This document shows, one piece after another, positions 21,303 to 29,961 of a stretch of DNA of 64,000 bases. Numbering within the stretch: position 1 is the first letter of the stretch; each line of letters starts with the position of its first letter. The stretch comes from Enteractinococcus coprophilus (lineage in GTDB: Bacteria; Actinomycetota; Actinomycetes; Actinomycetales; Micrococcaceae), in contig NZ_VFOU01000001.1 of NCBI RefSeq assembly GCF_006716305.1, positions 372,001 to 436,000 of the forward strand, in the 5' to 3' direction. A program made the position numbers and the translations under genes. A model generated the notes under the pieces. It was not told where the DNA came from, did not search any database, and was given only the letters and a program-made list of their open reading frames with translations.

Positions 21303-21896
21303 TCAATCGAGCCCGCGAACGACCAGGGCATCTGCCATATCGTCGGCGTGTTTCAACGACAGCACTAATACCGGTACGACCCACGCCCAGGGGGCTAAGC
21401 GCACGCCGCGAGCGTGCTGGGCGTCACGGACCTGACCAATGAATCCCATAATCTGGCCTAGTGCCGACAGCATCAACGCGACTGCCAGTGCGACCTTGCT
21501 GGGGTTGACGCCCAAGGGCTCGAACGGCGTCATAAGTTTTTCCACCGTGACGACTAGGTGTTTGATTCTGGTGGTGCGGGTGAAGAGTTGGGCAGCCAGG
21601 ATGATGGTGGTTAGCCGCGCAACCACGGTGGTTGCGACTTCGGGCTCGTTGAAGATCAGTTGGGTGACCAGCAAGAAGACCAGCAGAAAGGCCATGCGCA
21701 GCACATCGGTGACCATGATGCGCAGCGGAATTCGGGCAAGGACGTAGCCCAGCAATGGGATGGCGACGACCAAGATGGACCAGTAGGAGTCCGGGAGGAA
21801 GAACAGGGCAGCCGAACCGATGGCTAACAGGGCGAGCTTGAGTCCGGTGGGCATTCGGTGTAAAAACGAGCCAGCAGGATAGTACAGGGAGAGCAT
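21303..21896 (-). CDS. bioN: biotin ECF transporter T-component
   Basis: A 197-residue EcfT-type membrane protein with four to five hydrophobic segments. The characteristic coupling motifs of EcfT (an A-R-G triplet in two cytoplasmic helices) appear as AQHARGVRLAP and ADALVVRGLD. The start was placed at MLSLYYPAGS, whose ATG lies right after the bioM stop; the open frame upstream lies inside bioM. It completes the BioMNY transporter together with bioM and bioY at the other end of the cluster. Confidence 0.88.
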   Translation of the reverse strand: MLSLYYPAGSFLHRMPTGLKLALLAIGSAALFFLPDSYWSILVVAIPLLGYVLARIPLRIMVTDVLRMAFLLVFLLVTQLIFNEPEVATTVVARLTTIILAAQLFTRTTRIKHLVVTVEKLMTPFEPLGVNPSKVALAVALMLSALGQIMGFIGQVRDAQHARGVRLAPWAWVVPVLVLSLKHADDMADALVVRGLD

Positions 21897-21897
21897 G

Positions 21898-22566
21898 TCA
21901 GCCGATGTGCTCCAAGTAGCGGTCGATCGCATCTGAGCCACGGTGGGCGATCTTGGCGTCATGAATCCAGATGATGTCCTGGCATTTGGCGGCCAGCTGC
22001 AGGTCGTGGGTGATGAGGATCAGCTGCCGGTCTTCGGAGGCAAAGAGTTGTTCCCCGACGAGTTTGGCATAGCGGGCATCCAGCATGGTGGTGGGCTCAT
22101 CGGCAATCAGCACATCTGGTCGGGTGGCTAGTACTGAGGCCAACGCGAGGCGTTGAAGCTGCCCGGAGGACAGCGACAGGGCGGGCCGATCGGCGAATTC
22201 GGCCAGATCGTGTTCGGCCAGTACCGCCTCCAGGGTCGCCTGGCGTTGGTCTTTGGGCAGATGACGCAGGGACAGTTCGATATCTTCGGCGACCGAGGGC
22301 ATAATCACTTGCGCTGCCGCATTGGCGATGATCATTCCGACGCGGCGGGCTAGCTGTTTGCGCCCGGTGGCGACTTCGATGTCGTGGATCTTGGCCGAGC
22401 CGGTGTAGTCCAGCAGCCCGGAGAGCACTTTGGCCAGGGTCGATTTGCCCGAGCCGTTCTCGCCAATGATCGCCGTCGTGGGCGCATCCAGGGTGGCCGA
22501 GACGTTGTCCAGCAGGACGGCGTCGTCTGGTTTGACCGTGACGGTCACGTTTTGCAGTTCAATCAT
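21898..22566 (-). CDS. bioM: biotin ECF transporter ATPase component
   Basis: A 222-residue ABC ATPase. Walker A is GENGSGKST, the signature is LSLSSGQLQRLALA, Walker B is VLIADEPTTMLD and the switch His is in LILITHD. It energises biotin uptake with bioN and bioY. Its start overlaps the thiolase stop by four nt, and its stop abuts bioN, so the five genes from bioY to bioN form one transcript. Confidence 0.92.
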   Translation of the reverse strand: MIELQNVTVTVKPDDAVLLDNVSATLDAPTTAIIGENGSGKSTLAKVLSGLLDYTGSAKIHDIEVATGRKQLARRVGMIIANAAAQVIMPSVAEDIELSLRHLPKDQRQATLEAVLAEHDLAEFADRPALSLSSGQLQRLALASVLATRPDVLIADEPTTMLDARYAKLVGEQLFASEDRQLILITHDLQLAAKCQDIIWIHDAKIAHRGSDAIDRYLEHIG

Positions 22567-23606
22567 AGGTTCCTCACCAGCACGGCGGCCCCCATGCCGC
22601 CTGCGACTGCGGCAGCAATGAGGCCGTAGGTTCCGGCCGGTGCGTTGTGTAGTTGTTCAATGGTGGTTAATAAAGCGATGACGCCCGATGCGGCCCATGG
22701 ATGGCCGTGAGCCAGGGCGCCGCCGTGGAGGTTGACCGCGGTTGGGTCGAGTTTGAGACGCTGGCAGACCGCAAGCACTTGGGCAGCATAGGCCTCAACG
22801 ATATCGATGACGCTGATGTCGTGGATGTGCAGGCGGTGGGCTGTTAGTAAAGCATCGATCGCAGGGGCTGCGGCGATGCCCGGCAGGGCGGGGTCGGCCC
22901 CAACCAGCCGGTAGTCTACGATTTCCACCCCGAGATGGCTGTCAACGGTGGTCTCGGGTGCTAGCGCCACGACGGCTGCGGCATCAGCGATGCGAGCGGC
23001 CGATAGTCCGGTCACGGTGGCCAGCGGGTGATTGGTCACGGGGTCAAGTCGGCCAAGTAGTTTGGTCACATCACGGGGGCCGTCGTCGGGACGACCGCCA
23101 ACCAGGAAGTGTGAGGGATGGTCCAAGGCACGCTGGTGGCTGTGTAGCGCGTAGGTTTCTTGAGCTTCGCGGCTGATGTCGTAGTCGATGGCGAGCCGGT
23201 CTGCCGCCTCGGTCATATCCGGGTCGGGGAAACCTTTCGGCGCGAAAGCCGCCTGGGTTCGTTTACCATCGGGCCAGGCGGTGGAGGGGGATTCGGTGCC
23301 GCCGGCGACCACGGTTTGCCCGGTCATTTTGGCATGGGCTGCGGCTTGGCCCACAGCTAGCAGGCTGGAGCCACACTGAGCATCCAGGGTGACGGCGCCG
23401 GTGGTTTCCCAGCCGGTGCCAAGCGTGGCGATTCGGGCTACATTGCCTCCGGGGCCCACGGTGTTGCCCAGCATGACCAGATCGGGTTGGCGCCGCATTG
23501 CGGAGAGGACGGTCGCGGCGAGCTGGTCGTCGGTCATGTCAGATTGGCCGCGGTGCCAGCCGGTGATCGCGGTCCGGGCACCGGCGGTGACAACAATGCG
23601 GGTCAT
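22563..23606 (-). CDS. thiolase-family protein in the biotin cluster (YhfS-like), second active-site Cys missing
   Basis: A 347-residue thiolase. The acyl-carrying Cys78 is present (TLDAQCGSS) and His302 lies in ALAHGHPWAAS. The usual second Cys in CxGGG near the C-terminus is replaced: the segment reads AAAVAGGMG with Ala333 at the Cys position. Without that acid/base Cys, normal degradative thiolysis is doubtful, while decarboxylative or acyl-transfer chemistry remains possible. The arrangement BioY-ligase-thiolase matches Bacillus yhfU-yhfT-yhfS, a biotin-regulated set of unproven role. It overlaps both neighbours by 4 nt. At 347 residues it is shorter than standard thiolases of about 390. 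Confidence 0.8.
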   Translation of the reverse strand: MTRIVVTAGARTAITGWHRGQSDMTDDQLAATVLSAMRRQPDLVMLGNTVGPGGNVARIATLGTGWETTGAVTLDAQCGSSLLAVGQAAAHAKMTGQTVVAGGTESPSTAWPDGKRTQAAFAPKGFPDPDMTEAADRLAIDYDISREAQETYALHSHQRALDHPSHFLVGGRPDDGPRDVTKLLGRLDPVTNHPLATVTGLSAARIADAAAVVALAPETTVDSHLGVEIVDYRLVGADPALPGIAAAPAIDALLTAHRLHIHDISVIDIVEAYAAQVLAVCQRLKLDPTAVNLHGGALAHGHPWAASGVIALLTTIEQLHNAPAGTYGLIAAAVAGGMGAAVLVRNL

Positions 23607-24700
23607 GCTACCTCCGGGACTACTCGCCGAATCTTACCCGAAGGGGTGCGCGGCAGCTGGTTCACGCGATGCCATTGCACCGGCCGGGCCGCTTTAGGTA
23701 ACCGAGAGCGCGCCCAGGCCCGTAGCTCAGAGATCTCGGCGTTGCCCACAATCCATGCGACGACGCGTTGACCAAGCACCGCATCAGGTTGTCCCAGCAC
23801 CAGACAAGCAGCCACCTGCGGGTGCGCGGTGATGACGCGTTCGACGTCGGCGGGCACCACGGTCGCGCCGGCGGTCAGAATCGCACCGTCGCCCCGGCCA
23901 AGGAACTCCAGGATGCCGTCGGTTTCGTGCACACGATCACCAACGGTTGCCCACCGCACGCCGTCGATGACCTCGGTGCGCAATGTGCCACCGATGACGT
24001 CCAGGGCGAGCTGTTGGCTAGCCACCCACAGCTCGCCATCGATGATGCGAGTGGTGACGCCGTCAAATGCCTGCATGCCATCCCCGGTATCCCAGGCAAC
24101 CAGGCTCAGCTCGGATGCACCAACATAGGGCACGACACGCAGCCCGAGTCGTTCAGCGTTTTCGGCTAGTTGAGCGGGCAGACGGTCGCCGCCGACCAAC
24201 ACGGTGTCAATGGTCGATGGGGTTCCGGCTTCCAGTAGCTTCACCAGGTGTTCCAGCCATAGTGGTGTGAGGTGTGCGGCCACCGCTCGATTCAGCCCGG
24301 GGTCACCGGTTTCCGGGATGACCAATGCCAGGTGGGATTCCTGTGCCCAAGCCGCTGAGAATAGCGCCATCGACGACACCTGGTGCACCGGCATCCATAG
24401 TCCGTCGCCTGGACGCAGGCCGAGCTCAGCATTGAGCGGTGCGAAGGCTACCCGCCAGCTGTCAGCGGTGCGCACCACGATCTTCGGGGCACCGGTAGTG
24501 CCAGAAGTTAGCACAGCCCAAGCCGCGGCCTCTGGCAGCGAGATCGCCAGCGCGTCGTCGGCAATCGGCGCCCTGGGATCGGTGATCAGTGGGACGCCAC
24601 CGTCGGCACGCACGCTTAGCGCTTGTGCCAACGCGTCGGCTGCTCGCGCTGCGTTAATGAGCGACAGGTTCCGGGGCACGTTTGGCTGATTCCATCGCAA
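23603..24700 (-). CDS. AMP-forming acyl-CoA ligase in the biotin cluster (YhfT-like)
   Basis: A 365-residue, compact adenylate-forming enzyme. The P-loop is AVLTSGTTGAPKIVVRT, followed by ELSLVAWDTGDG, VGDRVHETDGILEFLGRGDGAI (hinge GRGD) and the C-terminal catalytic Lys in QLPRTPSGKIRR. It lacks the N-terminal subdomain of full-length ligases, like YhfT and MenE-type short forms. The start region overlaps the bioY end by 47 nt; a GTG eight codons in is an alternative. Likely to activate a (di)carboxylic acid, possibly a pimelate precursor; this is inference. Confidence 0.78.
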   Translation of the reverse strand: MRWNQPNVPRNLSLINAARAADALAQALSVRADGGVPLITDPRAPIADDALAISLPEAAAWAVLTSGTTGAPKIVVRTADSWRVAFAPLNAELGLRPGDGLWMPVHQVSSMALFSAAWAQESHLALVIPETGDPGLNRAVAAHLTPLWLEHLVKLLEAGTPSTIDTVLVGGDRLPAQLAENAERLGLRVVPYVGASELSLVAWDTGDGMQAFDGVTTRIIDGELWVASQQLALDVIGGTLRTEVIDGVRWATVGDRVHETDGILEFLGRGDGAILTAGATVVPADVERVITAHPQVAACLVLGQPDAVLGQRVVAWIVGNAEISELRAWARSRLPKAARPVQWHRVNQLPRTPSGKIRRVVPEVA

Positions 24701-25223
24701 AAGCGCGCGGGTAGGCGCGGTAGAGTCCCATGGTCACTAAGGTGGCGATCACAACTTTGGTAAGGTCACCGGGCAGAAACACCAGGGAGGTGATGATGGT
24801 TTCGCCAATGCTCAGCTCAGTGAACCAAGCCTGGACGGGGATACCGAAGAGATACACCACGAGGATACCCCCGATAATTGAACCCAGCGCTACACGCCAC
24901 CACACGGGGCGGGACCCGACGATCAGACCAATGACAATTGGGGCAACCACCCAGCCGATCAGATAGCCGGCCGTGGGTGACATAAACACCCCGATACCCC
25001 CGCGCCCCCCAGCCAGCAGCGGCAACCCAATGGCCACCCCGAACAACAGGAGCGCCATGGACGCAGCTCCACGCCACGGCCCCAGCACCGCTCCGGCCAG
25101 CATTACGCCCAGGGTTTGGAGGGTAATTGGTACGGCACCACCCACGCTGATGGCGCCAATCAACCCCATCCCGGCGGTGAGGGCTGCAAATACCGCGATG
25201 CGCGCTATGTCTCGTGCCGACAT
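24654..25223 (-). CDS. bioY: biotin ECF transporter S-component
   Basis: A 189-residue BioY substrate-binding membrane protein with six hydrophobic segments. The family signature is GGAVPITLQTLGVMLAGAVLGPWRGAASMALLL and GGRGGIGVFMSPTAGYLIGW. A good AAGGAG ribosome-binding site precedes the ATG. It is the first gene of the leftward cluster, and its promoter contains the double BioQ box shared with the divergent regulator. It captures biotin outside the cell for BioMN. Confidence 0.93.
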   Translation of the reverse strand: MSARDIARIAVFAALTAGMGLIGAISVGGAVPITLQTLGVMLAGAVLGPWRGAASMALLLFGVAIGLPLLAGGRGGIGVFMSPTAGYLIGWVVAPIVIGLIVGSRPVWWRVALGSIIGGILVVYLFGIPVQAWFTELSIGETIITSLVFLPGDLTKVVIATLVTMGLYRAYPRAFAMESAKRAPEPVAH

Positions 25224-25247
25224 TGTGACTCCTTGACAAAAAATTGT

Positions 25248-25274
25248 TGAACACCGTTCATTGAACGGTGTTCA
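25248..25274. promoter_or_regulatory. double BioQ operator between bioY and bioQ
   Basis: Two adjacent TGAAC-N3-GTTCA palindromes, 25248-25260 and 25262-25274, separated by one T; the whole 27-bp element is itself a perfect palindrome. This matches the known actinobacterial BioQ box (TGAAC-N3-GTTAC type). It would control both bioY and the divergent TetR gene. Confidence 0.88.
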
Positions 25275-25358
25275 GTGTAGCCTGAAATTGCCGTGCCCGC
25301 TACAGTGTGAAACGACTTGAAGATCACTACTCATCCACCAGCATTATGATGGTCGGTA

Positions 25359-25862
25359 ATGTCTACGATTACTCGCGATTCCCTCAGCCGCGTTGGGCTG
25401 CGCCTGCTAGCCGCCCACGGGCTAGCCGATGTTTCGATGCGCCGGGTCGCCAAAGAATTCGACGTCGCCGTCTCCGCACTCTACTGGCACGTCAGGGACA
25501 AACAATCCCTATTGGGCGCCATGGTCGATCAGCTGTTGGAAGACTTGGATGTCGCTCCGCCCACCGGTAATCGGCGCGCGGATCTGGTTGCCCGAGCCGA
25601 ACTGCTCTACGACAAACTCGTCACCACCCGCGATGCCGCTGAACTCACCGCATCCGTCCTAGCCCTGGGCACCGGCGGCTCCCGGATGCGCGAAATCATC
25701 GCGGAGGTCTCTGGGGACACCGTGACTACCGATGCACTCATGGCACTGCTGATCGGACACGCAACCCTGAACCAGCAGCGCATGCAGGCCCAAGCACTGG
25801 GCCTTGAGGTCGACACGACCACAATCACCACGTTCCGTCAGGCGCTGGATCTGCTGCTCTAA
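25359..25862 (+). CDS. bioQ: TetR-family biotin regulator BioQ
   Basis: A 167-residue TetR repressor. The N-terminal HTH reads LRLLAAHGLADVSMRRVAKEFDVAVSALYWHV, with the ALYWH recognition helix characteristic of the BioQ branch. The short C-terminal ligand/dimer domain is helical. It is divergent from bioY over a double BioQ box. A TATGAT -10-like element lies 8 nt before the ATG, again a near-leaderless arrangement. BioQ represses biotin uptake genes when biotin is sufficient, by sensing BirA/biotin state indirectly in relatives. Confidence 0.88.
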   Translation: MSTITRDSLSRVGLRLLAAHGLADVSMRRVAKEFDVAVSALYWHVRDKQSLLGAMVDQLLEDLDVAPPTGNRRADLVARAELLYDKLVTTRDAAELTASVLALGTGGSRMREIIAEVSGDTVTTDALMALLIGHATLNQQRMQAQALGLEVDTTTITTFRQALDLLL

Positions 25863-25910
25863 GGTAGGGCCTCTCATTTTCGTCTCATGTTGACCCTGCA
25901 TACTGGAGCC

Positions 25911-26252
25911 ATGTCACGTGTCCTTGTCACCCGACTTATCTGGGTCCTCGTCGGGGTAGTTGCCGTCATCACTGCGGCCTTTGCGATCCAGCCCGTGATG
26001 AGCGGGCCCGACGATATCGACCTCGGCCCTGTTGTGCACAACACGCACGAACCCGCCCCCTCCACCACGGCGTCAGCGACCACCGAAACAGAAACGCCCG
26101 CGGAAGCTGAAAGTCCCTCACCTGAAAGTCAGCCCGTCCAGCCCGCTCCCCCGGTCGTGGTCGATGACGACGACCGGGATGACGATGATTGGGACGATGA
26201 CGACTGGGATGATGACGACGATGATGATTGGGACGACGATGACGACGACTAA
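25911..26252 (+). CDS. exported/anchored Asp-rich protein with Trp-punctuated repeats
   Basis: A 113-residue protein starting MSRVLVTRLIWVLVGVV, a single N-terminal membrane or signal helix. A Thr/Glu/Pro-rich linker (PSTTASATTETETPAEAES) leads to a C-terminal tail made almost only of Asp with regularly spaced Trp (DDDWDDDDW-type units, about residues 84-113). Such a polyanionic tail could bind Ca2+, Mg2+ or other cations outside the membrane. It is the first gene of a run with a histidine kinase, response regulator and, convergent, polyphosphate polymerase. Its last 14 nt overlap the kinase start. Confidence 0.7.
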   Translation: MSRVLVTRLIWVLVGVVAVITAAFAIQPVMSGPDDIDLGPVVHNTHEPAPSTTASATTETETPAEAESPSPESQPVQPAPPVVVDDDDRDDDDWDDDDWDDDDDDDWDDDDDD

Positions 26253-27771
26253 CGAGTCCCAGCGCGCTGCGGGCAGTCGCCTATCGGTTCGGGCTCGCCT
26301 GTTGATCGGCATGATCATGCTCGCCGGACTCACACTGCTAATCACCGGAACCGTCAACTACGTGCTCGAGCGCGAAAATCTCGAGTCCACCCTGGATGAC
26401 ACACTGACCCGCGATGTCGAAGAATTCCGCGTACTGGCCGACACCAGCATTGACCCCGACACCCAGCAGCACTTCACCCGAGCAGCCGACCTGATGTACA
26501 CGGCGATGCAGTATAACCACATCACCGAAACCCAAAGCATGCTCGCTATGCAAAACGGGGACATCGTGTGGAGTGCGCCGACAAACGTCACAATGCGCCT
26601 GGAAAACGATCCCCAGTTTGTGCACTGGGCTTCCCAGCTATCCCCCGAGGCCGTCTACCTCACGTCCTTTGAAACCGACATCACCCGGTATCGTTCGGCC
26701 GTCGTGCCCGTGCAATTAGCCGAAGATGACACCACGGCCGTGTTCCTGACCACCTTCGACGTCGAAGCCGAACTCCACAAGCTGCGCATGTCGCTGGTCA
26801 TTTTCACCGCTGCAGGAGCCGGTGCAATGCTCATCGGTGGCGTGGTTGCCTGGCTGTTGCTGGGACGCATGCTCCAACCGGTTCGCGACTTACAAGAAAA
26901 CGCCCGACGTATCTCCGAACAAGACCTCGACTCGCGCATCCAGGCCCGCGGTCACGATGAATTCGCCGAACTGACCGAGACCATCAACAACATGCTCGAC
27001 CGGTTGCAGCTATCCCTGGAACAACAAAAGCAACTGCTTGACGACGTCGGCCACGAACTGCGCACCCCGATCACCATTATTCGTGGGCACCTGGAGGTCA
27101 TGGACGAAACCGACCCAGCAGACGTGACCCAAACCAAAGACATCGCCTTAGACGAGCTGCACCGCATGTCGTTATTGGTCAATGACCTGGTCACCCTCGC
27201 CCAGTCCAACAGCACAGATTTCCTTCACCCCAAGCCGACCGATATCAATGCCCTGATGCACGACATCACCGCCAAGGCCGCAGCCCTGGGCGAGCGCGAC
27301 TGGTCGCTGAAAGCCAACGCCGACGGCGAGGTTCTGATCGACGGCCCGCGGCTGACCCAGGCCATGCTGCAGCTGTGCGCCAATGCCGTGAAGTTCTCCG
27401 ACCCCGGTAGCCCCATCGAATTGGGCAGCACCATCCGCCTGAGCATCGCCGGCGACACCGAACTGTGCCTCTGGGTTGCCGACGCCGGGATCGGCATCAG
27501 CGCAGAAGACCAGCAGACCATCTTCAAACGCTTCGGTCGCGGCGGCAACGGCCAACGTGCCCAAGGCTCCGGGCTCGGGCTGAACATTGTCGAAGCCATC
27601 GCGCTCGCCCACGGAGGCCACGTCCACGTGGAATCCGCACCCGGCCAAGGCTCGATTTTCATCCTGACCATCCCGTTAGCACCTGAGGAACAAACACCGG
27701 CGCTTGCCACCACGACAGGTACGCTGGAACCGTCCCGTTTTAGCGATCAGGAGTACGGTGTCGGTGAATAG
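26239..27771 (+). CDS. sensor histidine kinase
   Basis: A 510-residue membrane kinase. TM1 lies near residues 20-40, an extracytoplasmic sensor domain spans about 45-190, TM2 near 195-218, followed by a HAMP linker (LLGRMLQPVRDLQENARRISEQDLDSR). The H-box is DDVGHELRTPITIIRGH, then N-box LCANAVKFS, G1 DAGIGIS, F-box KRFGRGG and G2 GSGLGLNI. The start ATG (MTTTNESQ) lies inside the Asp-rich gene's 3' end, so translation is probably coupled. The upstream frame is open only because the Asp codons read through. Its response regulator follows with an 8-nt overlap. Confidence 0.9.
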   Translation: MTTTNESQRAAGSRLSVRARLLIGMIMLAGLTLLITGTVNYVLERENLESTLDDTLTRDVEEFRVLADTSIDPDTQQHFTRAADLMYTAMQYNHITETQSMLAMQNGDIVWSAPTNVTMRLENDPQFVHWASQLSPEAVYLTSFETDITRYRSAVVPVQLAEDDTTAVFLTTFDVEAELHKLRMSLVIFTAAGAGAMLIGGVVAWLLLGRMLQPVRDLQENARRISEQDLDSRIQARGHDEFAELTETINNMLDRLQLSLEQQKQLLDDVGHELRTPITIIRGHLEVMDETDPADVTQTKDIALDELHRMSLLVNDLVTLAQSNSTDFLHPKPTDINALMHDITAKAAALGERDWSLKANADGEVLIDGPRLTQAMLQLCANAVKFSDPGSPIELGSTIRLSIAGDTELCLWVADAGIGISAEDQQTIFKRFGRGGNGQRAQGSGLGLNIVEAIALAHGGHVHVESAPGQGSIFILTIPLAPEEQTPALATTTGTLEPSRFSDQEYGVGE

Positions 27772-28438
27772 AATCCTCATTATTGAAGACGAACCCCGCA
27801 TTAGCTCCTTTCTCGCCAAAGGACTCAAAGCCGCCGGCTTTACCACCCAAACCGCCGCTACTGCCGCCGAAGGCCGCGCCCAAGCGATCAGCGCTACCTT
27901 CGATCTGATCATCCTCGATCTGGGCCTGCCTGACGCCGATGGCTACAGTGTGCTGAACTACATCCGCTCGGTCGGTCTCGACATCCCGGTCATCATCCTG
28001 ACGGCTCGCAACACCGTGGACGACACGGTCGCCGGCCTACAGTCCGGCGCCGATGATTACATGGCCAAACCATTCCACTTCGATGAGCTCTTGGCTCGCG
28101 TCCAGTTGCGCTTGCGCGCCGAACCACAAGAGGCCGAAGTATCGATCCTGACGCATAACGGGTTAGAACTGGATCGACTGCGCCGGGTCGTCAAAGTTAA
28201 CGGCGTGGAAGTCGATCTGTCGACCAGAGAATTTGAGCTCGCCGAAACGTTTTTGCGCCACCCCGGCCAAGCGCTATCTCGGGAACAGCTATTATCCCGC
28301 GTGTGGGGCTATGATTTTGACCCCGCCTCCAACGTCGTCGACGTCTACGTCCGATATTTGCGCAATAAACTCGGCACCGACCGCTTCGAAACCGTCCGTG
28401 GTATCGGCTACCGCCTAGCCACCCAACCAGACAGCTAG
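27764..28438 (+). CDS. OmpR/PhoB-family response regulator
   Basis: A 224-residue regulator. The receiver domain (about 1-115) shows the acidic pair in LIIEDEPRIS, the phosphoacceptor Asp in LIILDLGLPDADG, and the switch Thr and Lys in ILTARN and MAKPF. A winged-helix DNA-binding domain follows (LSTREFELAETFLRHPGQALSREQLLSRVWG and VDVYVRYLRNKLG). The GTG start overlaps the kinase stop and has CAGGAG upstream. It ends tail-to-tail with the polyphosphate polymerase gene, with stops overlapping in a CTAG. Confidence 0.92.
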   Translation: MNRILIIEDEPRISSFLAKGLKAAGFTTQTAATAAEGRAQAISATFDLIILDLGLPDADGYSVLNYIRSVGLDIPVIILTARNTVDDTVAGLQSGADDYMAKPFHFDELLARVQLRLRAEPQEAEVSILTHNGLELDRLRRVVKVNGVEVDLSTREFELAETFLRHPGQALSREQLLSRVWGYDFDPASNVVDVYVRYLRNKLGTDRFETVRGIGYRLATQPDS

Positions 28439-29247
28439 CCACCGGCAGCTGTACGTTGCCAGTCGAGCCGCTTCAGAAGGCGCGACCAGTTATTCGCCGG
28501 CAACTGAGGGTTCAGTGTTGCCACCCCAAGGCAGTACTTCGACATGCTCACCGGACGAATATTCAACTCCGCCAGTGCTGTATCGGATATCCCGCGCCCA
28601 TCGGCAGTCTTAGTCTCCACGATCACCATGTCTGGCCCATGCACCACACCGTCCGTATCGGCGAAGCGCAAATCCACATCGCAGGTCACGCGCTCCCCAT
28701 CCACCGGGTCTACCAGTGTTGCCCGCCGATACGCATTGCGCAATGCCGGAACCAATTTTGGCATCTTGTGCCCATATTCTTGGGCGAGCACCTGGGCTGC
28801 AAATTCCAAGTTTTCCGGCGTCAGCACGTGAGCATCGGCTATCGGCTGCTCGCGACGATGCTTGACCGTCGCCCCGCGCAGACCTTTCGTCTTGATCTCA
28901 AACATGCACAGCTCAGATTCCACGTATGTCCGCGAGCGCACCTTGTACCGCCGACGACGCCCTTGGCGGTGAGCGACGTACTGTTCAAAGTCTGGGGTGT
29001 CGAAGTATGTGGAACGGTATTGGAAAGTGCGCAGCCCATTGATCTGCATGACCGAAAATTCCGGACCCAGCCGGTTGGTAAACTGGCGAAATTGTTCGGG
29101 AGTCAATAAGAATTTTTTATCTACCCGGGTCTGCAGAGCCGCGTTTTCCACGACGTCGGCCAGGGAAATCCCTGACCGATCATCAACCGCGCACTCCATG
29201 GCAATACGGGCTTGACTGAAGCGTTGTTTCTGGTTGGTTTCCTGCAT
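28435..29247 (-). CDS. VTC-domain polyphosphate polymerase
   Basis: A 270-residue protein with a VTC catalytic domain, the triphosphate-tunnel fold that makes polyphosphate from ATP in yeast Vtc4. Tunnel motifs visible are RVDKKFLLT, YRSTYFDTPDFEQY, RQGRRRRYKVRSRTY, MFEIKTKG, VTCDVDLRF and MVIVETKTADG, rich in Lys/Arg and Glu as required for phosphate and metal binding. It follows a DUF4956 membrane protein by 3 nt, a frequent bacterial pairing thought to couple synthesis to export or a membrane compartment. It has no signal peptide or transmembrane helix itself. Confidence 0.88.
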   Translation of the reverse strand: MQETNQKQRFSQARIAMECAVDDRSGISLADVVENAALQTRVDKKFLLTPEQFRQFTNRLGPEFSVMQINGLRTFQYRSTYFDTPDFEQYVAHRQGRRRRYKVRSRTYVESELCMFEIKTKGLRGATVKHRREQPIADAHVLTPENLEFAAQVLAQEYGHKMPKLVPALRNAYRRATLVDPVDGERVTCDVDLRFADTDGVVHGPDMVIVETKTADGRGISDTALAELNIRPVSMSKYCLGVATLNPQLPANNWSRLLKRLDWQRTAAGG

Positions 29248-29250
29248 GGA

Positions 29251-29961
29251 CTATCGACCCGTGATCGCATTGACGAGTCGGTTCGCAAACCCAGATGATG
29301 TGCGCTGCTGCGCACCGATCGGTTCTTGCAGCGCGATAGTTTGCTGCTGATCCAGGGGTTCTTTGCGGTTCTTGATGCGTTCCAGGATCTTATCGCCGGG
29401 CAAGGTCCCGACAGATTCATTGGTGCGATAGCGAACGTCCACAATGGTCATGTCGCGGACCATGTCCAATTCCATCACGACGGTGCGCAAGACTTTGGCA
29501 TCCAGCAGCTCTTCCAGTGCTGCCACGCGTTCTTGCTGGGATGGGTATGCCCGATCCAAGGTGACCATCTGTCTTTCGGTTTTCGCCCCGATCCAGTGGT
29601 GGTCAGCAATAAACATGACACCAACCAAAAACGCGGTAATCAATGGCGAAACCCATGCCGGATCTGGATGCAGTCCGTTGATCAGTCCAATCGCAAGCGA
29701 GATGAAGTAGTAGGCCACCTCTTCTTGGGTGAGAGTGTCAGAGCGTAGGCGGATGATCGACAGAATGCCGAACAATCCAAGACCAAGCCCCAGACCGGCT
29801 TCGGATTCCGAGAGCAGCAGCGTGACGGCAAAGATGCCCATACTTAACGCGATATAGGCAAGCGCAAGGTCCCGCCGGAAGTGGCGCCGGAAATAGACGA
29901 GATAAACCAGGATTGCCATCCCGACGATATTGGCTACCAGGCCCATCCACAATGCCATCAT
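29251..29961 (-). CDS. DUF4956 membrane protein, partner of the polyphosphate polymerase
   Basis: A 236-residue protein with four to five N-terminal membrane helices (about 1-125) and a soluble C-terminal domain. The glycine-rich SESEAGLGLGLGLFGILSIIRLRSDTLTQEEVAYYFISLAIGL block is the DUF4956 signature (given here only by its start and end: SESEAGLG to ISLAIGL). An AAGGAG ribosome-binding site lies 8 nt before the first of two ATGs. It is the upstream member of a two-gene operon with the VTC polymerase and probably forms its membrane platform. Confidence 0.85.
   Translation of the reverse strand: MMALWMGLVANIVGMAILVYLVYFRRHFRRDLALAYIALSMGIFAVTLLLSESEAGLGLGLGLFGILSIIRLRSDTLTQEEVAYYFISLAIGLINGLHPDPAWVSPLITAFLVGVMFIADHHWIGAKTERQMVTLDRAYPSQQERVAALEELLDAKVLRTVVMELDMVRDMTIVDVRYRTNESVGTLPGDKILERIKNRKEPLDQQQTIALQEPIGAQQRTSSGFANRLVNAITGR

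Follow-up and report, generated by a model that had tools for sequence, protein, structure and literature searches.

The 64,000-nucleotide stretch of Enteractinococcus coprophilus DNA analyzed here, referred to in the following as the window (contig NZ_VFOU01000001.1 of assembly GCF_006716305.1, positions 372,001 to 436,000 of the forward strand), contains an operon in which an adenylate-forming ligase and a thiolase homologue are encoded between the genes of a putative biotin transporter. The thiolase homologue is, judged by its sequence, a member of a distinct thiolase-fold family and no ordinary thiolase, since the catalytic base Cys378 has been lost, an aromatic signature is present and the family occupies a separate branch of the thiolase tree. 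We tentatively favor the reading that this is a biotin-starvation operon of scavengers, in which uptake by an energy-coupling factor (ECF) transporter would be coupled to a dedicated C2 elongation, the likeliest acid to be elongated being bisnorbiotin.

Five genes make up the operon: bioY (24654–25223), the short ligase gene (23603–24700), the thiolase homologue (22563–23606), bioM (21898–22566) and bioN (21303–21962). They form one leftward run on the minus strand, in which neighboring open reading frames (ORFs) overlap or abut. A BioQ-like TetR gene (25359–25862, plus strand, 167 residues) is divergent from the bioY-led run, and two exact BioQ boxes lie in between. An earlier note, made from the sequence of this stretch, had described the same five-gene run, divergent TetR and double box, and the ORFs, Pfam matches and exact boxes confirmed that description. 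All six genes matched Pfam families over cut-off: BioY (PF02632, 118.2 bits) for the 189-residue S component, AMP-binding and AMP-binding_C (PF00501 and PF13193) for the 365-residue ligase, Thiolase_N and Thiolase_C (PF00108 and PF02803) for the 347-residue thiolase homologue, ABC_tran (PF00005, 89.5 bits) for the BioM ATPase, CbiQ (PF02361, 48.2 bits) for the BioN T component, and TetR_N (PF00440, 38.3 bits) for the repressor. The window bioY was the sole PF02632 match in its genome; together with the adjoining BioM and BioN homologues, it constitutes a putative ECF biotin transporter, BioMNY. The ligase ORF opens with a TTG 47 nt inside bioY, and its start is uncertain; for bioN, translation more likely begins at an ATG at 21896, just past the stop of bioM.

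The active site sets the thiolase homologues of this kind apart. In one alignment of 167 thiolases, comprising 40 members from Actinomycetota and Bacillota and 127 others, Cys378 of the CxG motif was found in none of the members, which have Ala (24), Ser (10) or Gly (6) instead, compared with 126 of the 127 others (residue roles follow PMC3406046). The residue after GH[PAG] was aromatic in all 40 members (Trp in 27, Tyr in 9, Phe in 4) and in a single one of the others, while Asn316 of the NEAF motif was kept in 10 of the 40 members versus 127 of the 127 others. Meanwhile, the N-terminal CxS loop had its nucleophile, Cys89, in 39 of 39 readable members (one truncated locus was unreadable there), and His348 of GHP was present in 40 of 40. 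In the window protein, the positions of Cys89, Asn316, His348 and Cys378 are occupied by Cys78, Val270, His302 and Ala333, respectively. Measured against a thiolase of the EC 2.3.1.9/16 type, it thus retains the nucleophile and the histidine and lacks both the base and the asparagine. Four members (L182, L220, L222 and L230) were included because of the signature and an adjacent ligase rather than through bioY, which makes the Cys378 count partly circular; 36 members remain without them. ECF-module genes lie near in two of the four, L182 and L230.

A maximum-likelihood tree was calculated from 87 rows of the alignment, consisting of 35 members and 52 others (every second non-member row). All 35 placed members fell on one side of a single branch with 100/99 support, which was present in 200 of 200 bootstrap trees, although the bootstrap fell just short of convergence (0.985 for a threshold of 0.99). 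The window thiolase appears to evolve far faster than its kin, with an end branch of 3.31 compared with a median of 0.51. Its AF2 model was confident (pLDDT 93.8, pTM 0.93), and the 50 PDB matches listed in a fold search were all thiolases, with TM-scores of 0.85–0.92. Among them, the Z. ramigera biosynthetic thiolase shares the fold (TM-score 0.86–0.89 in the entries listed) and the equivalents of Cys89 and His348, and differs at the two positions described above, Cys378 being Ala, Ser or Gly throughout the family and Asn316 being replaced in 30 members.

The ligase, in contrast, has retained its motifs. The window protein contains the P-loop, GxxE (as G-A-S-E), GD and GR motifs and the C-terminal Lys of PSGK, as found in acyl-CoA ligases of the ANL superfamily, and in addition an SW motif shortly past the P-loop. 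This SW was found in 34 of 34 module ligases (33 locus ORFs and that of the window) and in none of 11 other ligases; these controls were drawn from 128 control loci, include one fragment with gaps at the SW position, and may include a MenE. G-[AST]-x-E was present in all module ligases, and the aligned C-terminal Lys in all except that of L175. The AF2 model of the window ligase (pLDDT 86.3, pTM 0.74) has the ANL fold; the first Foldseek matches were McbA and MenE, and the nearest solved sequences were MenE (E ≈2e-21). Identity with MenE, the o-succinylbenzoyl-CoA ligase, was rejected, as the best-scoring NCBIfam model, a MenE model, gave 118 of the required 345 bits and the SW motif kept by every module ligase was found in none of the controls. 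Neither fold search, for the thiolase or for the ligase, gave any information on the substrate.

The conservation of the arrangement was assessed in 119 genomes sampled from the order to which the window belongs. These were searched with the thiolase (30 loci) and then by tblastn with the window proteins and in wider stretches. A thiolase of the window kind was present in 26 genomes, the window's included, and the ligase adjoined it in 25, the 26th (G010) being a contig that begins inside the thiolase gene. The order bioY–ligase–thiolase–bioM–bioN, all in one direction, was found in 19 of the 26 (at L151, bioN was visible only by tblastn with the window proteins), and we therefore do not consider the operon to be a chance assembly. 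Three further genomes keep the order up to a contig end that cuts it (L155, L162 and L167), at L154 and L174 the ligase–thiolase pair faces bioN–bioM–bioY, and at L175 no bioM or bioN was visible. At L172 (G064), about 10 kb separates the ligase from the thiolase in an otherwise normal operon. A second adenylate-forming ligase follows bioN at two loci (L072:8382–9770 and L255:2038–3603), and the L072 copy has the SW motif. A 27th order carrier, G005, was found in a later search of Actinomycetota, so that 27 of 119 is a lower bound.

Beyond the order sample, a scan of named loci showed at least five that were bioY-linked among the 80 listed, from Microbispora siamensis, Nocardia donostiensis, a Mycetocola metagenome-assembled genome, Fictibacillus barbaricus and Candidatus Avacidaminococcus; the list consisted mostly of other thiolases. 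The query thiolases matched 146 of 299 Bacillota genomes, where 30 loci were read and yielded L181, L182, L183, L192 and L194, and 51 of 296 Actinomycetota genomes, where 30 loci were read and yielded seven members, two of them already known. After duplicates had been dropped (L181, equal to L080; L217, equal to L012; L218, equal to L015), there were 40 member genomes (26 + 5 + 4 + 5). In 36 of the 40, the thiolase adjoins bioY or bioM/bioN. The earlier note had allowed that the orthologues might occur mostly away from bioY, or might by phylogeny be generic β-oxidation enzymes; the neighborhood comparison showed the opposite of the first, and the 100/99 branch places the thiolase apart from generic ones.

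Within the biotin regulon, the yhfS–yhfT pair of Bacillus has posed a puzzle since 2002. Together with bioY, in Bacillus and Staphylococcus, it resembles the window operon in being a ligase and a thiolase homologue under biotin control. The NCBIfam models PRK07638 and PRK06690, which we take to represent YhfT and YhfS, were matched over cut-off by the ligases and thiolases of the bioY-linked Bacillota loci L080 and L212, and these share the branch, the loss of Cys378 and the SW motif with the window family. The earlier note's proposal that the actinobacterial pair is related to the Bacillota bioY–ligase–thiolase set is therefore supported by the common branch and by these two loci. The comparison with YhfS and YhfT was made through the models rather than through their own sequences; against the PRK06690 cut-off of 498 bits (NF005212), L080 and L212 scored 509.2 and 594, whereas L025 scored 302.5 and the more divergent window thiolase 185.7. 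Further differences are the BioQ boxes, the joined bioM and bioN, and the short ligase, which has 365 residues compared with 441–504 at six Bacillota loci. The pair has been placed under BirA control in S. aureus (PMC6391492, PMC7235819), with BirA control also described in B. subtilis (PMC11089781), and the 2019 and 2020 papers (PMC6391492, PMC7235819) give its products only as putative homologues. The C. glutamicum system has BioY, BioM, BioN and TGAAC-N3-GTTCA boxes, but there the three genes are consecutive (cg2147–cg2149), with no ligase or thiolase in between (PMC3398298). That the actinobacterial version is little described, as the earlier note had suspected, agrees with our search, in which the parts of the literature covered contained neither a description of this operon nor an assigned role for the pair.

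Control by biotin is suggested in both phyla by sites at the operon start. In the window, box 1 (TGAACACCGTTCA, 25248–25260) and box 2 (TGAACGGTGTTCA, 25262–25274) lie 25–51 bp ahead of the bioY start. The genome (2.88 Mb) has no more than four exact TGAACnnnGTTCA sites, these two included. Around the remaining two (L007 and L008), inspection of the ORFs in 3 kb by eye revealed no recognizable biotin gene. By exact match, the window operon is thus the only visible candidate BioQ target in its genome. The best PDB matches of the TetR protein were 5xs9, 5yej and 5yek (E ≈1e-13), all titled simply "TetR family transcriptional regulator"; 5yej and 5yek are presumably M. smegmatis BioQ. Judging by the titles of the works concerned, Corynebacterium and Mycobacterium employ BioQ as a biotin regulator. 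A BioQ-like gene divergent from the operon, together with paired boxes, was also found at L156, L157, L159 and L160, while L073 has one box and a BioQ-like gene. A single exact box was also present at L072, L254 and L255 and at L158, where it lies some 1.1 kb ahead of bioY. In Bacillota, BirA-type palindromes were present at the operon start of four of the six loci (L080, L212, L213 and L214), against an expectation of 0.025–0.045 per locus from mononucleotide shuffling; none was found at L145 or L211.

Most carriers of the module do not appear to make biotin. Genes were scored as absent when below the NCBIfam cut-off, a measure that alternative enzymes would escape and that is affected by the incompleteness of some genomes. 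By this measure, 29 of the 40 carriers have none of bioA, bioB and bioD, and 35 have neither bioA nor bioD. In total, bioB was over cut-off in 11 carriers, and bioA and bioD in five each. Six carriers have bioB only (G085, G119, G120, G262, G300 and G334), whereas five have all three genes (G005, G062, G121, G122 and G470). In the window genome, the matches to bioB and bioA were sub-threshold relatives, none of the three genes was over cut-off, and there was no bioF match at E 1e-60. As a marker, bioF was uninformative, with 0 of 119 genomes over cut-off even where bioB, bioA and bioD are present. Five of the six carriers with bioB only are Bacillota; around their bioB, no bioF, bioA, bioD or bioW was seen when the ORF list was inspected by eye, and by their gene content these five look like importers of biotin or desthiobiotin rather than producers. 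In these loci (L246–L250), bioB stands without other de novo genes alongside; BirA-like palindromes occur near it in L246, L247 and L248, and a second BioY (by Pfam) adjoins it in L247 and L250. A lone bioB in such company suggests the use of desthiobiotin.

These gene distributions bear directly on what the earlier note had proposed, that the two enzymes lead toward pimeloyl-CoA or recycle products of biotin breakdown. There is a precedent for the first in BioZ, an α-proteobacterial condensing enzyme of the thiolase superfamily that serves biotin metabolism by elongating glutaryl-CoA with malonyl-acyl carrier protein (PMC7645780), and the pair could in the same way supply de novo biotin synthesis with pimelate or pimeloyl-CoA, which the five carriers with a full bioA, bioB and bioD set could use. 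However, the reaction of BioZ is that of FabH, while the window protein is closest to true thiolases in sequence and fold and is found for the most part in genomes without bioA and bioD. Moreover, carriers in the order sample do not have bioB more often (3 of 27) than non-carriers do (11 of 92), and the 11 bioB-bearing non-carriers include six with bioA and seven with bioD over cut-off. As a general role, pimeloyl-CoA synthesis is ruled out by the absence of these genes from most carriers, and in any form we consider it quite unlikely. Since most carriers could not use pimeloyl-CoA, a shortened biotin is the best-fitting acid, and the recycling half of the proposal survives in the form of a rebuilding of the side chain.

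The suggestion that the pair elongates its substrate comes from the gene content of the Bacillota loci. At L080, the operon runs on into two hot-dog proteins that match FAS1_DH_region (26.3 bits) and MaoC (85.5 bits) over cut-off. L211 (in G145) combines the ligase and the thiolase with a pair of hot-dog proteins, again matching FAS1_DH and MaoC over cut-off, and with a FabG-like short-chain dehydrogenase/reductase (SDR), a CbiQ protein and two ECF ATPases. It also encodes an NMO protein, for which FabK (277.9 of 453 bits) was the sole NCBIfam match at E 1e-30. This stretch (L211:4449–13019) has Vut_1 in place of bioY beside the base-less thiolase and the FabG/FabK-like genes, and may serve another vitamin. 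At L213 and L214, a protein ahead of bioY is homologous between the two loci (34%), and at L145 a FabA-like protein follows the ligase. A likely dehydratase is thus encoded at five of the six Bacillota loci, two of them over cut-off; none was spotted at L212. The generic SDR matches seen in the actinobacterial loci L156, L160, L168 and L174 fall outside the five-gene run.

On the reading that we favor, a shortage of biotin would release BioQ from both boxes and allow the operon to be expressed. BioMNY would import biotin and perhaps, as a guess, shortened biotin, and the ligase, with its intact motifs, would form the acyl-CoA. The thiolase-fold enzyme would then take the acyl group on Cys78 and condense it decarboxylatively with a malonyl thioester, as BioZ does; lacking the Cys378 base, it would carry out condensation in place of 3-ketoacyl-CoA cleavage. 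A ketoreductase, a hot-dog dehydratase and an enoyl reductase would complete the cycle, and these are what some Bacillota operons appear to encode, while Actinomycetota would take them from fatty acid synthesis. One round on bisnorbiotin, which has a side chain two carbons short of that of biotin, would yield biotin, a guess that fits the missing bioA, bioB and bioD. Gene content suggests the elongation role, with bisnorbiotin as our guess at the substrate. Rebuilding is favored over degradation because the operon lies behind biotin-repressor sites and because of the reductive-cycle genes in Bacillota. Both bisnorbiotin and tetranorbiotin have been described among the metabolites of biotin (PMC10670868). 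With more doubt, we put forward as a possibility a salvage pathway common to the two phyla, in which imported bisnorbiotin or tetranorbiotin would be activated and its side chain rebuilt by a base-less condensing enzyme and a reductive cycle of the fatty acid type; no description of such a pathway was found in those parts of the literature that our search covered.

Other roles for the pair would leave biotin out of the chemistry or make no carbon–carbon bond. If acetyl-CoA carboxylase fails for want of biotin, the module might activate and lengthen ordinary short or fatty acids in a biotin-sparing lipid metabolism. The kinship of the ligase with acyl-CoA synthetases and the dehydratases of the fatty acid synthase type, once accompanied by reductases, in the Bacillota operons are consistent with this, and it would suit auxotrophs and prototrophs alike. 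A bypass of malonyl-CoA, however, would require a residue like Cys378 as the base; Cys378 was found in 0 of 40 members, although another residue could serve, whereas a malonyl-dependent version would fail at low biotin. The location within a biotin transporter operon also suggests a biotin-like substrate, and we regard the lipid role as unlikely. The kept Cys nucleophile, the lost base and the loss of Asn316 in 30 of 40 members could mean that the ligase makes the CoA thioester of imported biotin or a vitamer and that the thiolase-fold enzyme transfers or hydrolyzes the acyl group. Such trapping or acyl transfer would agree with the position of the pair between transporter genes in genomes mostly without biotin synthesis genes, but it leaves the Bacillota dehydratases and FabG/FabK-like genes unexplained, and appears less likely still. 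Least probable by far is that an ordinary β-oxidation ligase and thiolase drifted into the operon: such an origin would fit the closest NCBIfam models, those of acetyl-CoA acyltransferases and CoA ligases, yet the separate branch, the absence of the catalytic base from every member and a linkage conserved across two phyla all speak otherwise, and a generic β-oxidation pair was rejected on the tree and the active site.

Several observations weigh against the elongation reading itself. Condensing chemistry would be expected to require the oxyanion-hole Asn316, which 30 of the 40 members lack, and the end branch of the window thiolase is very long. Five carriers have complete bioA, bioB and bioD sets, and BioY is present in 107 of the 119 order genomes while the module was found in 27, so that most BioY genomes do without it. 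The one operon with a full cycle, L211, has no adjacent bioY, and no BirA palindrome was found there. The dehydratase assignments are not uniform either: the MaoC match at L214 is 0.5 bit below cut-off, its counterpart at L213 matched no Pfam family, and the FabA-like protein at L145 is below the Pfam cut-off and has Gln at the motif position where FabZ usually carries His. No dehydratase or FabK-like match was found by tblastn in 29 actinobacterial stretches; the elongation cycle in Actinomycetota would therefore be either borrowed or absent. An exact BioQ box was found at only six of the 26 order loci, so that BioQ is probably not the sole regulator of these operons. Lastly, the use of bisnorbiotin by bacteria was not found in the literature searched, as judged by titles or the beginnings of abstracts.

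Among the other genes of the window, the one at 25887–26252 encodes a small protein that has no Pfam match and whose tail is rich in Asp (DDDDWDDDD); it lies directly ahead of a HAMP–HisKA–HATPase histidine kinase (26332–27771) and a response regulator. Two adjacent genes on the minus strand (28435–29247 and 29251–29961) encode proteins with a VTC domain and DUF4956, by Pfam.

If the favored reading is correct, a branch of the thiolase family would have turned into decarboxylative ketosynthases, which would explain the biotin-controlled yhfS–yhfT pair, and the carriers would have a vitamin source in the breakdown products of biotin in soil, gut and host fluids. As it stands, the evidence narrows the yhfS–yhfT problem to a base-less thiolase-fold family tied to biotin uptake, mostly in genomes that lack biotin synthesis genes, and reduces the question of what the pair does to a short list of candidate substrates.

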